Below are positions 34,480 to 56,034 of a stretch of DNA of 64,000 nucleotides, one piece after another; position 1 is the stretch's first letter, and the number at the start of each line of letters is the position of its first letter. Both the position numbers and the translations under genes were made by a program. The notes below the pieces were generated by a model. The model saw only the letters and a list, made by a program, of their open reading frames with translations. It was not told the origin of the DNA and searched no databases. The DNA comes from Iphinoe sp. HA4291-MV1. GTDB taxonomy: Bacteria; Cyanobacteriota; Cyanobacteriia; Cyanobacteriales; Nostocaceae. The stretch is taken from the NCBI GenBank assembly GCA_019359415.1, contig JAHHHH010000029.1, positions 1-64,000 on the forward strand, given 5' to 3'.

Positions 34480-34625
34480 GTTAGCGTGTCCTCTGGACAT
34501 AGACGCTCTCGACGCGTTCGCCCAAGGGGCGACGCCTTCTCCTAAGGGGAGACGCCAAGGGCGAACGCGCAGCGTGTCGCAGACAAGGGCGAACGCGCAG
34601 CGTCTCCGTCAGGAGAAGGAAGAAA
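34480..34625. repeat. GC-rich interspersed palindromic repeat cluster
   Basis: Several copies of GCGTTCGCCC / GGGCGAACGC-type palindromes, GGGGCGACGCC and AACGCGCAGCGT(CTCC), arranged in both orientations between hgdB and hgdC. Similar units are at 45680-45880, 49440-49500, 50880-50915, 56035-56075, 59270-59400 and 62095-62240. The open frame across it (74 codons) is a by-product of the repeats. Confidence 0.75.
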
Positions 34626-47241: not shown

Positions 47242-47730
47242 TTGGTCTCAATTTTGGTCCAGTTTGATGAAGCGGTTGCCAATGCCAACCAAAGACTAAA
47301 AGCAGCAAAAGCAAGAGTGTTGATAGAAAAAAGGTGCGATCGCTTGTGCTTGAGAGCAACACTCCCACCAAAACCACATACTGGGAAAGGTCGGGCTTTC
47401 CGACAAAGGATATCACTGGGAGCGAAAGCAACAATCGCAGGCTTACAGTATGCCGAGCAAAAAGCCAAACTCATAAGTGCTCAGCTCGATTTAGATAAAT
47501 TCGATTGGGCAGAGTGGATAGAACAAGAGCCGTCCCAGGAAGATACTACCATTGGTGAATGGGTAGAACGATTTGAGGAGGACTACTGGAACCGAGTAAG
47601 CCGGACACCCAATAAAGAAGAAAACTGGAAGAAAGATTATGCGCAAGTCTTCTCTAAATTACCAGCAGAAAAACCACTAACCCTAGACTCTCTCTTAACT
47701 TGCATCAAGTCCACTCCCAACGGATGGTAT
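47242..47730 (+). pseudogene. Truncated site-specific integrase next to tRNA-Cys
   Basis: The first about 160 residues resemble the N-terminal part of cyanobacterial phage-type (tyrosine) recombinases: helical FDEAVANANQRLKAAKARVLIEKR, a KPHTGKGRAFRQRISLGAKATIAGLQ linker typical of the arm-binding domain, and EWIEQEPSQEDTTIGEWVERFEEDYW. The catalytic half (Arg-His-Tyr) is missing: the frame breaks into an IS1-like sequence near 47700-47750. It starts at a TTG (47242); no better start is seen. Position downstream of a tRNA fits an integrated element left behind. Family assignment is by pattern; the core-binding domain is not conclusive alone. Confidence 0.6.
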
Positions 47731-48024
47731 ATTATCCATCGGCGGTGCTGATGGTAATTTTTCGCCCATTTGTTTAACCCAGTTAATTATAGTTGTGTGA
47801 TGAATTCCAGTTTGGCGCTCAATTGCTCTAAAACCTGCGCCATTAAGGTACGCATTTAAACATTCTATTTTTTTCTCCTGAGAGTAACCGAGTAGTGGAC
47901 TGTAAACATCAATAAATTGGCGACTGCAATTGGTACAGATGTGATTCTGTTTACCTCGTCGCTTACCATTTTTTCTAATCTCAGTAGAGCCGCAGTATGG
48001 ACAATTCACGGTAGAACACCTCAA
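47695..48024 (-). mobile_element. 5' part of an IS1-family transposase (InsA-like)
   Basis: Encodes a zinc-ribbon and helix-turn-helix N-terminus: CPYCGSTEIRKNGKRRGKQ, HICTNCSRQFIDVYSP, then KIECLNAYLNGAGFRAIERQTGIHHTTIINWVKQMGEKLP. That is the InsA-like part of an IS1 transposase. After residue about 95 the frame leaves the family and runs into the integrase remnant, so the DDE part is gone. It is a partial copy whose insertion or deletion removed the 3' half of the integrase gene. Confidence 0.8.
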
Positions 48025-48078: not shown

Positions 48079-48937
48079 CTTATTAGCTACATTATAAAGA
48101 AATGAACGAATAAATAACTTATGCGTGCGATGATTTTGGAGACACCGCGAAAACCTTTGCGGTTAGACGACTTGCCAGTACCAAAACCGAATCCACAACA
48201 AGTATTGATTCACGTTCATGCTTGCGCTGTCTGTCGTACAGATTTACACATTGTTGATGGGGAATTAACACACCCAAAACTACCTCTGGTACCTGGGCAT
48301 CAAATTGTCGGTACAGTGGAGGCGATTGGGGAACGTGTGGAAAAATTTCATGTAGGCGATCGCGTTGGTGTCCCCTGGTTAGGTCATACTTGCAATCATT
48401 GTCGCTATTGTCTTTCTGGACGTGAAAATCTTTGTGATTATGCCAAGTTCACAGGTTACAACCTTGATGGCGGCTATGCAGAGTACACTGTTGCTGATGA
48501 AAGCTTTTGCTTTCTTATTCCTGGCGACTATCCTGATTTACAAGCTGCACCGCTGTTATGTGGAGGATTAATTGGCTATCGCGCTTACAGAATGACTGGT
48601 GATGCTGAAAAAATAGGTTTTTATGGCTTTGGTTCCGCTGCACACATTCTCATTCAACTCGCTCGTTATTAAGGTCGTCAAGTTTTTGCCTTTACCCGTT
48701 CTGGTGACACTCAGGGACAAGAGTTTGCGCGTCAGTTGGGAGCAATTTGGGCGGGTGACTCAGATGCATTACCTCCAGAACCATTGGATGCAGCAATTAT
48801 TTTTGCTCCGGTAGGGAAACTCGTCCCTGCTGCTTTGCGTGCAGTTGCTAAAGGCGGTATAGTTATTTGTGCTGGTATCCACATGAGTGATATTCCATCT
48901 TTTCCCTATGAAATTCTTTGGGAGGAAAGGGTTTTGC
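48079..48937 (+). repeat. Direct repeat, copy 1, carrying the broken dehydrogenase
   Basis: About 860 bp that match 56578-57434 almost base for base, from the TATTAGCTACATT just 5' of the gene to the GAGGAAAGGGTTTT near residue 272. Differences cluster in the 3' third. The two copies lie in the same orientation 8.5 kb apart and could recombine to delete what lies between. Confidence 0.85.
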
Positions 48938-49017
48938 AGGATGAGCATTTTGCTTACATTGCTCAAGAGAACCCTGATACTGCACTCCATTTTTTTGACG
49001 CTGTTAGAATGCAGTAG
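48121..49017 (+). pseudogene. Zinc alcohol dehydrogenase pseudogene fused to a RelE/ParE toxin scrap
   Basis: The frame equals the intact gene at 56617 for about 183 residues, including the zinc motif CRTDLHIVDG and GHTCNHCRYCLSGRENLC, then has a nonsense codon: TAA at 48670-48672 where the intact copy has CAA (Gln). The same frame continues to residue 272 (VLQ), where it changes to DEHFAYIAQENPDT, matching the toxin at 52312 over about 25 residues, and stops after MQ. So it is a dead gene with both a point nonsense and a recombined 3' end. The same frame is kept across the junction. Confidence 0.88.
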
Positions 49018-49158
49018 AGTGAAGCAATCTCAAAGCCTTCCAGAGATAACTTGATTTCTGCACGTTTCTGTCATTCGTAACTCTTACAGGTATAGCATGG
49101 ATCTACTGACAGAATAAGCTAGATACAGTGACAGGTTCTTGAACACACGGTGACTTTC

Positions 49159-50744
49159 ATGCTGGGTCAAACAATACGCGGACGCTACCGCATTATCCAA
49201 CAGATAGGAGAAGGGGGGTTTGGTGTTACTTTCTTAGCTCTTGACATACAACGACCAAGGAATCCTCAGTGCGTTGTTAAGCAGTTTAAACCTGTGGCTA
49301 CTGATCCATACACTTTGCAGCACGCAAAACGTTTGTTTGATCAAGAAGCAGAGATACTGGAAGTTCTAGGAAACCATGATCAAATCCCCCGACTTTTGGC
49401 TCACAGGACTTACGCACTCGTGACGAAAAATAAGGCTTTGCGTAAGCGCAAGCGCACGCTAAGAGCGAACGCGCAGCGTCTCCGTAGGAGATACGGTCGC
49501 AATGACAAAAATCCGTTATTTTTGCGTAAGTCCTGGCTCATTGTGAAGAGAATCAAGAATTTTACATAGTTCAGGAATTTATTAAAGGTCAAGACCTCAC
49601 TCAAGAAGTCTTTTCTGGAAAACAACTTAGTGAAACTGAGGTGATTAGGCTTTTAAAAGATATTTTAGAAGTTTTAGCCTTTGTTCATCAAAAAGGAGTC
49701 ATTCACCGTGATTTAAAACCATCGAATATTATGCGACGTGAGTCAGATGGCAAAATTGTGCTGATTGACTTCGGTGCAGTCAAGCAAGTCGCCACTCAAA
49801 TAGCTAATGCTCAAGGACAAACTAGATTTACTATTGTCATTGGGACTCATGGTTATATGCCAAGCGAACAAGCCAATGGTCACCCAACATTAAGCAGCGA
49901 CATTTATGCAGTTGGAGTTATCTGTATTCAAGCTTTGACAGGAATAAATCCTGCATTCCCAACTGACCCCCGTACAGGTGAAATTATTTGGCGAAATCAA
50001 ACACAAGTTAGTCCCAAGTTAGCTGATATCATAGACAAAATGATCTGTTATGACTACCGTCAGCGTTACCAGTCAGCAGATGAAGCTTTGCAAGCTTTAA
50101 AAACGCTATTACCTGATATTTCAGTTAGCAATCAAACGCAGAAGCAGCCTGACACTAAAGTCCTTACAACTAAACCACCAACCCAGCCACCAGGATCACC
50201 CAAAAAACTTTTAATTGGCTCGGTAATAGCAGCGGTACTTGCTACAAGTATTGTTGTTATCTATATTTTTAAATCTTCAAACTCAGAAAATTTACTACAA
50301 TATGAAAATGCTAATTTTGGGATAAAAATAAAATATCCTCAAAGCTGGGAAAGACAAGATGTAAACAATGCTATCACAGGAGAAGTGGTTACATTCCTAT
50401 CTCCCAAACAAAGTGATGCAGATAAATTCCAAGAGAAGGTGACTATCAGCGTTGAAGATTTTTCAGGAACCTTACAGGAATTTAATGATTCCATCATCAA
50501 GGAAAATAACAATAATATATCAAAAGCTAAGAATATCCAGTCAAATGACTCTTCTCTTGCAAATAAACAAGGAAAAGAATTAGTATTTACTGGTAAAAAT
50601 GGAGAAAATAGTTTACAAAATATGCAAATTTTTACTTTAAAGGGCGATAAAGCATATGTCATTACTTACACAGCAGAAATAGATAATTACGATGACTTTA
50701 TCCAAACGGTAGAGACAATGATTAAATCATTTGAAATTCAGTAG
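49159..50744 (+). pseudogene. Ser/Thr protein kinase with PsbP-like C-terminus, split by a MITE
   Basis: A Hanks-type kinase with start ATG 49159 (MLGQTIRGRYRIIQQIG); GTG 49150 is also open. The glycine loop GEGGFGVTF and the N-lobe lysine (CVVKQFKP) are intact, then a 132-bp element plus 5-bp duplication breaks the frame, ending at TAG 49567-49569. Beyond it the frame resumes: CEENQEFYIVQEFIKG, the catalytic HRDLKPSNI, DFGAVKQVA, then a membrane helix (LLIGSVIAAVLATSIVVIYIF) and a PsbP-like domain (YENANFGIKIKYPQSWER...). Removing the insert restores one frame of about 483 residues. The C-terminal part from 49641 could be translated alone but lacks the ATP loop, so kinase function is lost. 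Confidence 0.9.
49404..49535. mobile_element. 132-bp MITE with CAGGACTTACGCA ends inside the kinase gene
   Basis: Terminal inverted repeats CAGGACTTACGCA (49404-49416) and TGCGTAAGTCCTG (49523-49535) are perfect complements. The 5-bp target GCTCA is duplicated at 49399-49403 and 49536-49540. The core contains the genome's GAACGCGCAGCGTCTCC-type palindromes. There is no transposase. Deleting element and one target copy restores the kinase frame exactly. Confidence 0.93.
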
Positions 50745-50879
50745 ACTAAATGCCACCTATGTCTACTGAAAACGAGAGCGCTTTGTAAAAGCAATATCCC
50801 TGATTAGCGGGCTGTGGAACGGTTATTACATATTATTTGACTCCATTCTTGTCTGCCTAGGACTGAAAGTCCACTTACT

Positions 50880-50915
50880 TATAGGCGTTCGCGCAGCGTC
50901 CCGTAGGGAAGTCCA
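50880..50915. repeat. Interspersed GC-rich palindrome unit
   Basis: TAGGCGTTCGCGCAGCGTCCC plus GTAGGGAAG, the same family of GCGAACGCGCAGCGTC units found at 34.5 kb and elsewhere. It is immediately to the left of the 21-bp tandem repeat array. Confidence 0.6.
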
Positions 50916-50921
50916 TTAACA

Positions 50922-51152
50922 ATGCGAGTCGATGCATTAACAATGCGAGTCGATGCATTAACAATGCGAGTCGATGCATTAACAATGCAGGTCGATGCAT
51001 TAACAATGCAGGTCGATGCATTAACAATGCAGGTCGATGCATTAACAATGCGAGTCGATGCATTAACAATGCGAGTCAATGCATTAACAATGCGAGTCGA
51101 TGCATTAACAATGCAGGTCGATGCATTAACAATGCAGGTCGATGCATTAAGA
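50922..51152. repeat. 21-bp tandem repeat array, 11 units
   Basis: Eleven units of ATGCGAGTCGATGCATTAACA-type (21 bp, each with an ATGCAT palindrome; variants read ATGCAGG or TCAATG). The unit length is three times seven and a multiple of three, so several frames stay open on both strands (the plus frame reads MRVDALT repeats), but no start context or function supports translation. A partial unit precedes the array. It follows the split kinase. Confidence 0.9.
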
Positions 51153-51597
51153 TGGCACTGCAATACAAAGACTAAGCCGCAAAACGCCACTAAGAGTGCA
51201 AGTAGCGCTTCGGGGCAAAGTTTGTCAAGGGCGATTGCCCAAGGGGCAGTGGCAAAGCCAATCGCACCAGATTGCAGTCATAATTGGTTCATTGTTCCTC
51301 CTCATTTACTGGACATCTTTATACCAATTCTCTGTGAAGCTGCACATTATTTTGACCCCTCCCAACCTCCTCTTAGTAAGGGGAGGTGCCGCAGGCGGTG
51401 GGGTTCTTTCCAATACTGCTCGGATAAGCAAAAATTAGAAACCCGGTTTCTTAAAGAAACCGGGTTTCTGGCACCTCAACTATTCTTAACCGAGCAGTAT
51501 TGGGGTTCTTTCTATGCGTCTTCATACAGAATTGGTATTAAGCAAGAGTGATTAACTCCTGGTACGCTACGGTTGGTGTGTTTCAAGGAGTTATTAG
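51153..51597. other. Spacer with repeats and no gene
   Basis: About 440 bp. It holds the GAAACCCGGTTTC palindrome at 51437-51469 and CCCCTCCCAACCTCC/GGGGAGGTGCC-type GC-rich segments near 51355-51400, plus a split CCAATTCTCTG / CAGAATTGG inverted pair (about 51323 and 51528). The long frame from 50922 into here is not believed. Confidence 0.5.
51437..51469. repeat. GAAACCCGGTTTC double-palindrome repeat, copy 3
   Basis: AGAAACCCGGTTTCT (51437-51451), TAA, AGAAACCGGGTTTCT (51455-51469): a perfect inverted pair and the same unit as at 3595-3627 in opposite orientation. Confidence 0.85.
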
Positions 51598-51992: not shown

Positions 51993-52312
51993 AAGCATAC
52001 GAGTTTCCAGCCAAAATCACAACTGAAGGTAAAATTGAATTACCTGATACAGTTTTGCAGCAGTTACCCCATAATCAGCAAGTAAAAGTCATTATTCTAG
52101 TTAATGAGCCAAGCGAAGATGAAGAAGATGACGAAGCTTGGCGTCGTCTTGCTTCCGAGCAATTATTGAAACGCTACAGCGAAAAGGCTCAAGAACATAT
52201 AGAGGAACTTTTAATTGAGGGACTTGAGAGTGGAGAAGCAATTGAAGTTACTGATGAATGGTGGAAGCAAAAACGCACACACCTGATGAACAAGCTGCGT
52301 CAGGGACAATAA
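51989..52312 (+). CDS. Antitoxin-like protein of the RelE/ParE operon
   Basis: 107 aa. The N-terminal half has a short beta-hairpin like other cyanobacterial antitoxins (YEFPAKITTEGKIELPDTVLQ) and an acidic linker (EPSEDEEDDEAW); the C-terminal half (IEELLIEGLESGEAIEVTDEWWKQKR) is like the ParD-type neutralising tail. It looks like two antitoxin segments joined, with DEWWKQKR near the end. The stop TAA overlaps the toxin start (TAATG), a typical coupling. It would bind and block the toxin and repress the operon. Confidence 0.75.
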   Translation: MKAYEFPAKITTEGKIELPDTVLQQLPHNQQVKVIILVNEPSEDEEDDEAWRRLASEQLLKRYSEKAQEHIEELLIEGLESGEAIEVTDEWWKQKRTHLMNKLRQGQ

Positions 52313-52629
52313 TGACAAAGCGGATAATTATCACACCTAAAGCAAGTTTGGATATAGATGAGCATTTTGCTTACATTGCCCAACAAAATCCTGATGCTGC
52401 ACTCCTTTTTTTTGACGCTGTTAGAGAAACTTTTGCACAGTTAGCAAGAATGTCTGGGATGGGTAGTTTGTATCAAGTGCAGAATCCTCGTTTACAAGAG
52501 TTGCGTAAGTGGGCTGTCAAGGATTTCAAAAAGTATCTCATTTTTTACTTTGAACAAGACGAAAATATCCAAATTGTACGGATTCTCTATGCCGGGAGAG
52601 ATATTGAGAGGATTTTAGAACAGGAATGA
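52312..52629 (+). CDS. RelE/ParE-family toxin
   Basis: 105 aa from ATG 52312. RelE/ParE fold: RIIITPKASLDIDEHFAYIAQQNPDAALLFFDAVRETFAQLA (helical hairpin), then QELRKWAVKDFKKYLIFYFEQDENIQIVRILYAGRDIERIL, the final beta-sheet with the ILYAGRDIERIL signature. Targets are either gyrase or ribosome-bound mRNA; the family alone does not say which. A 25-residue part of a very similar gene is fused to the pseudogene at 48.9 kb, so at least one more copy existed. Confidence 0.88.
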   Translation: MTKRIIITPKASLDIDEHFAYIAQQNPDAALLFFDAVRETFAQLARMSGMGSLYQVQNPRLQELRKWAVKDFKKYLIFYFEQDENIQIVRILYAGRDIERILEQE

Positions 52630-55964: not shown

Positions 55965-56034
55965 CTAAGAAGTCTTAAAAACCTAAAAAATCATAACCTA
56001 ATTTTTACCTTCGTGACCTTCTCGTAAGTCCTGC

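Follow-up and report, generated by a model that had tools for sequence, protein, structure and literature searches.

The closest described counterparts of the element reported here are the insertion sequences of the ISCysp21 type of the IS701 family (NCBIfam NF049921), which have an identical terminal 13 bp, generate 5-bp duplications and occur in the same host group; they differ from it in that the element of this study carries no transposase gene and, as judged by eye, shares only the ends with them. For another IS701 element, ISTth8 of Thermus, 4-bp repeats are recorded in the available part of the source (PMC6352166). With regard to non-autonomous elements (MITEs), Nezha (Zhou 2008) is named as a cyanobacterial MITE in excerpts of two articles (PMC10969869, PMC3733652), and an excerpt of one of them states that MITE insertions inactivate the mcy cluster of Baltic Sea Anabaena (PMC10969869). 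As far as these mentions go, Nezha resembles the element described below in kind, as a cyanobacterial MITE, and the Anabaena insertions resemble it in that a MITE inactivates a gene, although the gene is a different one. The accessible parts of further articles mention cyanobacterial REP repeats (PMC3733652), SDR as a class of short repeats (PMC3116915) and the insertion of SDR5 inside HIP1 (PMC4390886). In the excerpts retrieved, nothing was found on the subject of IS701, MITEs and cyanobacteria taken together, and a literature search for AGGACTTACGCA gave no match.

The locus lies in the window, the whole stretch of 64,000 nucleotides that was analyzed. We assign a probability of roughly 85% to the following reading as a whole: a MITE served by an IS701-like transposase inserted into a kinase gene, its loop was replaced in a separate event, and it is now probably stranded in its genome. 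The preliminary description had noticed a 132-bp unit with perfect 13-bp ends and GCTCA on both sides, and this was confirmed at positions 49399-49540. The element occupies 49404-49535; it is a MITE that belongs to a 93-bp family and whose apical loop holds foreign sequence. Its perfect 13-bp terminal inverted repeats are CAGGACTTACGCA at 49404-49416 and TGCGTAAGTCCTG at 49523-49535, and the target duplications GCTCA lie at 49399-49403, where relatives have a single GCACA, GCTCG or GCTCA, and at 49536-49540, all of these features being on the + strand. The exact 13-mer end is present at two places in the window, both of which are the ends of this MITE, and with up to two mismatches it is present at five places versus 1.1 expected. 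In its size of 132 bp, its terminal inverted repeats and its lack of a transposase gene, the element corresponds to a bacterial MITE. As single-stranded DNA it is predicted to form a long hairpin (z = -5.3, equaled by 0 of 200 shuffles), and its 93-bp relative also folds (z = -5.1). A Pfam search with the ORF running through the element returned no family, and an Rfam search of positions 48500-51500 gave 0 matches up to an E value of 0.1. Two promoter-like sites and one terminator-like site were noted near the MITE, all on the - strand (shuffle means of 0.4 each).

The interrupted gene encodes a Ser/Thr protein kinase. Its 5' part (49150-49403, + strand) reads ...IPRLLAH up to the target site, after which the frame continues through the element, itself open in that frame, to a stop at 49569, so that the left ORF comprises 139 aa. 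The 3' part (49541-50744, + strand) is open but severed from the N-lobe; its frame reads AHCEENQEFYIVQEF, and its ORF contains the remaining kinase domain (Pkinase) followed by a PsbP-like region. The orthologue in the relative G005 is intact, with 485 aa and Pkinase at residues 13-269, and reads RLLAHCEQNQEFYIVQEY. The two ORFs are parts of one kinase gene whose N-lobe is split by the MITE, as had been proposed, and the comparison of the window pieces with the intact G005 orthologue also supports the proposal that excision gives RLLAHCEENQEFYIVQEF in one frame. Element and duplication add 137 bp; since this is not a multiple of 3, the kinase frame is shifted, which almost certainly would have destroyed the kinase.

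Further features were observed around this gene. Directly 3' of it, at positions 50914-51150, a unit of 21 bp is repeated in tandem 11.3 times with 96% matches. An alcohol-dehydrogenase-like gene at 48121-49017 has a PF08240 match in its first part, and one in-frame stop at 48670-48672 interrupts it. At its end it reads DEHFAYIAQENPDTALHFFDAV; this closely resembles the ParE-type ORF at 52258-52629, which gives the impression of a fusion to a relic of a ParE-type gene. On the - strand, a zinc-ribbon ORF of 109 aa at 47695-48024, with a PF23451 match below the cut-off, overlaps the end of the ORF at 47242-47751 and presumably resembles an IS1-type protein.

Empty sites, which the preliminary description had proposed to look for in relatives, were present in all nine kinase loci examined: on both strands, the element is absent from the site and the two flanks adjoin. 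The matches to the two flanks share 5 bp in G005, G004, G001, G003 and G008 and 4 bp in G014, and in G007, G027 and G032 a gap of 10-19 bp separates them. The target site is GCACA in G005, G004, G001 and G003, GCTCG in G014, and GCTCA in G008, G027 and G032, while the position printed for G007 is a few bases beyond the target. Among the matches listed, all 14 upstream pieces end at query positions 251-255, at most 4 bases from the junction. An overlap of exactly 5 bp, which a single-copy target predicts, is seen between the pieces in G005, in G003 and in one G004 copy. The window diverges from G005 by about 16% in the left flank and 10% in the right flank, and this divergence places the insertion after that split. 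The insertion of the MITE in the kinase gene is real and lineage-specific within the genomes compared, and the empty sites show that the MITE landed in the part encoding the N-lobe after the lineage had split from the compared relatives.

Other copies with the same ends, for which a genome search had been suggested, are present. The exact 13-mer end was found 56 times in the whole genome (31 forward, 25 reverse; 0 for a reversed-pattern control), and with either pyrimidine as the first base it was found in all 14 well-assembled relatives, in two of which the control gave 1. Loci collected around such ends yielded 108 distinct elements, the window copy among them, that have facing ends and a length of 50-300 bp; an exact 5-bp duplication flanks 75 of them and is absent from the other 33. 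When the flanks were shuffled 200 times, such duplications numbered 1.2 on average and never more than 4. Among the 22 own-genome elements listed, which do not include the window copy, 19 have a 5-bp duplication. A separate own-genome MITE family of 103-104 bp (e.g., L019, L029 and L045) has the same ends and internal GAAACCCGGTTTCT repeats; it accounts for 15 of these 22 elements, 13 of the 15 with the duplication. Two further hallmarks of bacterial MITEs were thus found, namely, a target duplication of fixed length, as seen in GCTCA, in the 75 duplications and in the empty sites, and multiple copies, in that a pattern search of 246 genomes detected the 93-bp type uninterrupted 113 times, spread over 26 of them.

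A search for a transposase with these ends had also been suggested: elements of the IS701-like type NF049921 were found in plasmids, G007 and G001, but the own assembly shows only fragments. Of the six IS701-like plasmid loci fetched, four have both ends; these elements measure 1139-1162 bp, start with TAGGACTTACGCATTGACA and have a 5-bp duplication in three cases and none in the fourth, and all three plasmid transposases tested scored above the NF049921 cut-off. The IS701-like element of G007 (1199 bp) has a 5-bp duplication and an unbroken transposase frame. Those of G001 (1291 bp) were seen at five loci, four of which have both flanks readable and three of these a duplication, and the G001 transposase was matched as two overlapping pieces in different frames and may not be intact. 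In the genus of the window genome, three of eight genomes have an NF049921 match over the cut-off. These elements of 1139-1291 bp have their first 13 bp in common with the MITE, but by eye no internal MITE sequence was recognized as derived from them; since the ends alone are shared, the MITE was probably mobilized by, and not derived from, an IS701-like element. An end pair 2086 bp apart in G010 was considered as an insertion sequence and rejected, as the enclosed ORF reads like a beta-glucosidase. An all-against-all comparison of ORFs from 30 own-genome and 40 G004 loci around ends yielded no shared transposase, but it overlooked decayed fragments.

Such fragments are present beside the ends, for example at G000:C41:60406-60612 and G004:C1:4461572-4462111. 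The own genome has six partial NF049921 matches, the best of which reaches 90.6 bits against a cut-off of 250, and in all four of its transposase-fragment loci that were retrieved, an exact 12-bp end lies no more than about 310 bp from the fragment. Because the own assembly contains only fragments, the MITE is probably stranded, and judging from this draft of 140 contigs and 95% completeness, from which an intact transposase copy could be missing, it can probably move only if the genome gains a matching transposase.

The terminal 13 bp are by eye all that the 93-bp family shares with these elements, so that its assignment to a transposase rests on the ends and the duplication length. One might suppose that the ends stem from a different, so far unnamed insertion sequence with 5-bp duplications, with which the IS701-like elements merely share a 13-bp end. 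The subterminal sequences of both the 93-bp and the 103-bp MITEs differ by eye from those of the IS701-like elements, and the 4 bp recorded for the Thermus element in the available part of its source (PMC6352166) would also fit this supposition; the duplications of the plasmid (3/4), G007 and G001 (3/4) copies comprise 5 bp and not 4. It is nevertheless improbable, given that the 13-bp end and the 5-bp duplication are common to both, that the own-genome MITE L044 and the G001 insertion sequence start with the same 22 bases, that the match of a 479-bp G004 element to annotated IS701-like elements of plasmids covers 220 bp and reaches the end of the latter, and that in the own genome such ends have transposase fragments beside them. 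From these sequence comparisons, the 93-bp MITE family was probably mobilized by an IS701-like transposase of the ISCysp21 type. The DDE transposase of such an insertion sequence most likely moved the MITE, and it would cut at the MITE ends and join them to a target staggered by 5 bp.

The window element is nearest to a copy of 93 bp carried by plasmid CP030122.1 of Brasilonema octagenarum UFV-E1. G004, which belongs to the same genus as the window genome, has an uninterrupted-type match at G004:C2:81832-81922, in agreement with the location of the plasmid copy, so that G004 is probably this strain. The window element matches the plasmid copy at 100% over parent positions 2-39 and at 93% over positions 52-93, and the 12 bp in between are replaced by 51 bp. 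The replacement corresponds to a G+C-rich dispersed repeat of 54 bp at 49441-49494 (+ strand), whose edges can be placed only to within a few bases; this repeat stands where the parent has about 12 bp of loop, and it includes the palindrome GAACGCGCAGCGTC at 49467-49480. On its own, this insert folds little better than shuffles (z = -1.5, 15 of 200 as good). The 54-bp repeat was recognized in 18 of 20 loci fetched, with 89-100% identity and 100% in one G004 copy, and its 27-bp core is exact in seven stretches from Brasilonema sp. CT11 (3), B. bromeliae SPC951 (3) and Scytonema tolypothrichoides VB-61278 (1). As judged by these comparisons, the palindrome is part of an independent dispersed repeat of about 54 bp that replaced the apical loop of the 93-bp parent, either before or after the jump into the kinase gene.

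The preliminary description had taken the MITE as a carrier linking the GAACGCGCAGCGTC palindromes, a claim that proved mostly wrong. There are 18 exact GAACGCGCAGCGTC copies in the own genome, of which only 2 lie between facing MITE ends, and so the window MITE does not spread the palindromes. The view that the MITE family includes the 54-bp repeat as one of its own parts and is the vehicle of the palindromes is largely contradicted and very improbable. It would draw on the presence of GAACGCGCAGCGTC inside the window MITE, on the second exact copy, which is inside another MITE of 162 bp, and on the identical G004 copy of the 54-bp repeat, near which MITE-type ends with at most two mismatches lie, one 117 bp before its start and the other 143 bp after it. 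Against these stand the remaining 16 exact copies in the genome, around which no facing ends were found within 300 bp, the 113 uninterrupted copies, which by the length of the pattern are too short for the 54-bp repeat, and the seven stretches with the 27-bp core, in which no MITE ends were found within 300 bp of it, three of the stretches being incomplete at a contig or locus boundary. In the window, the exact or one-mismatch copies at 34563, 34591, 56048 and 59342 have no facing end pair, and a lone two-mismatch end at 56021-56033 lies near one of the other GAACGCGCAGCGTC copies. The full 132-bp chimera has no second copy in the own genome and none among the matches listed from 99 other genomes, for each of which 8 candidates were scored; the 20-mer at the junction of MITE arm and inner repeat gave 0 matches in the genome collection, which perhaps lacks its own record. 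Evidence that the 132-bp chimera moved as one unit is thus limited to, at most, its own target duplication.

As to how the loop insert arose, a question that leaves the main reading unaffected, template switching or gene conversion between repeats with common edges is given even odds against mobility of the repeat itself. A switch of this kind would account for the loss of about 12 bp of parental loop and for the bases that both edges share with the repeat, and elsewhere the 54-bp repeat is often located within compound repeat clusters. However, some relatives' inserts leave the entire parental loop in place; in L197, an insert of 21 bp is found at parent position 50, and 93 of 94 parental bases are matched.

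Independent loop replacement in the MITE of the window has parallels in other copies. In the own genome, four related copies were seen (window, L014, L201 and L032), none of them uninterrupted and all with loop inserts; L201 (G000:C138:62579-62708) has two separate ones, at about parent positions 39 and 50, and L032, a composite of 279 bp, carries four, of which two fall outside parent positions 38-56. When only copies 80% or more identical to their parent are considered, 19 carry inserts, L141 appearing twice among them with different left ends; inserts are confined to positions 38-56 in 17, which are not independent events since several copies share one insert; the two exceptions are L032 and L235. 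These 17 loop inserts measure 11 to 128 bp and comprise several sequences, some of them common to several copies. At a loose threshold of 68%, 28 insert-bearing copies were obtained, 26 with an insert start at parent positions 36-58, although several of these represent other MITE families. A pattern search over 246 genomes, which sees only inserts before GCAATGAC, detected extra length upstream of GCAATGAC in 10 copies from 5 genomes, and the mirror pattern for the 3' arm detected extra length downstream of it in 2 copies. Small dispersed repeats inside cyanobacterial minitransposons were reportedly described by Elhai in 2008, with a size said to be 21-27 nt; by this description they are likewise short repeats inside other repeats, compared to 54 bp here.

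One tentative interpretation, which we consider possible but rather unlikely, is that the apical loop is a preferred landing site and that MITEs serve as landing pads carrying other repeats. Unrelated modules, mostly of 21-54 bp, would enter at about parent positions 38-41 and 50-54, and the tip, perhaps single-stranded upon hairpin extrusion, may favor their entry. The same pattern could result from selection for intact arms or from the procedure by which the copies were found. The nested insertions provide a set for testing the movement of very small cyanobacterial repeats.

At this locus a gene is cleanly disrupted, relatives have the empty site, and the abundant MITE ends of a cyanobacterial family are probably connected through it to IS701-like elements with duplications of 5 bp. 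As a transposition event the jump is ordinary and the interest of the case modest, but the repeated invasion of the loop merits a closer look.
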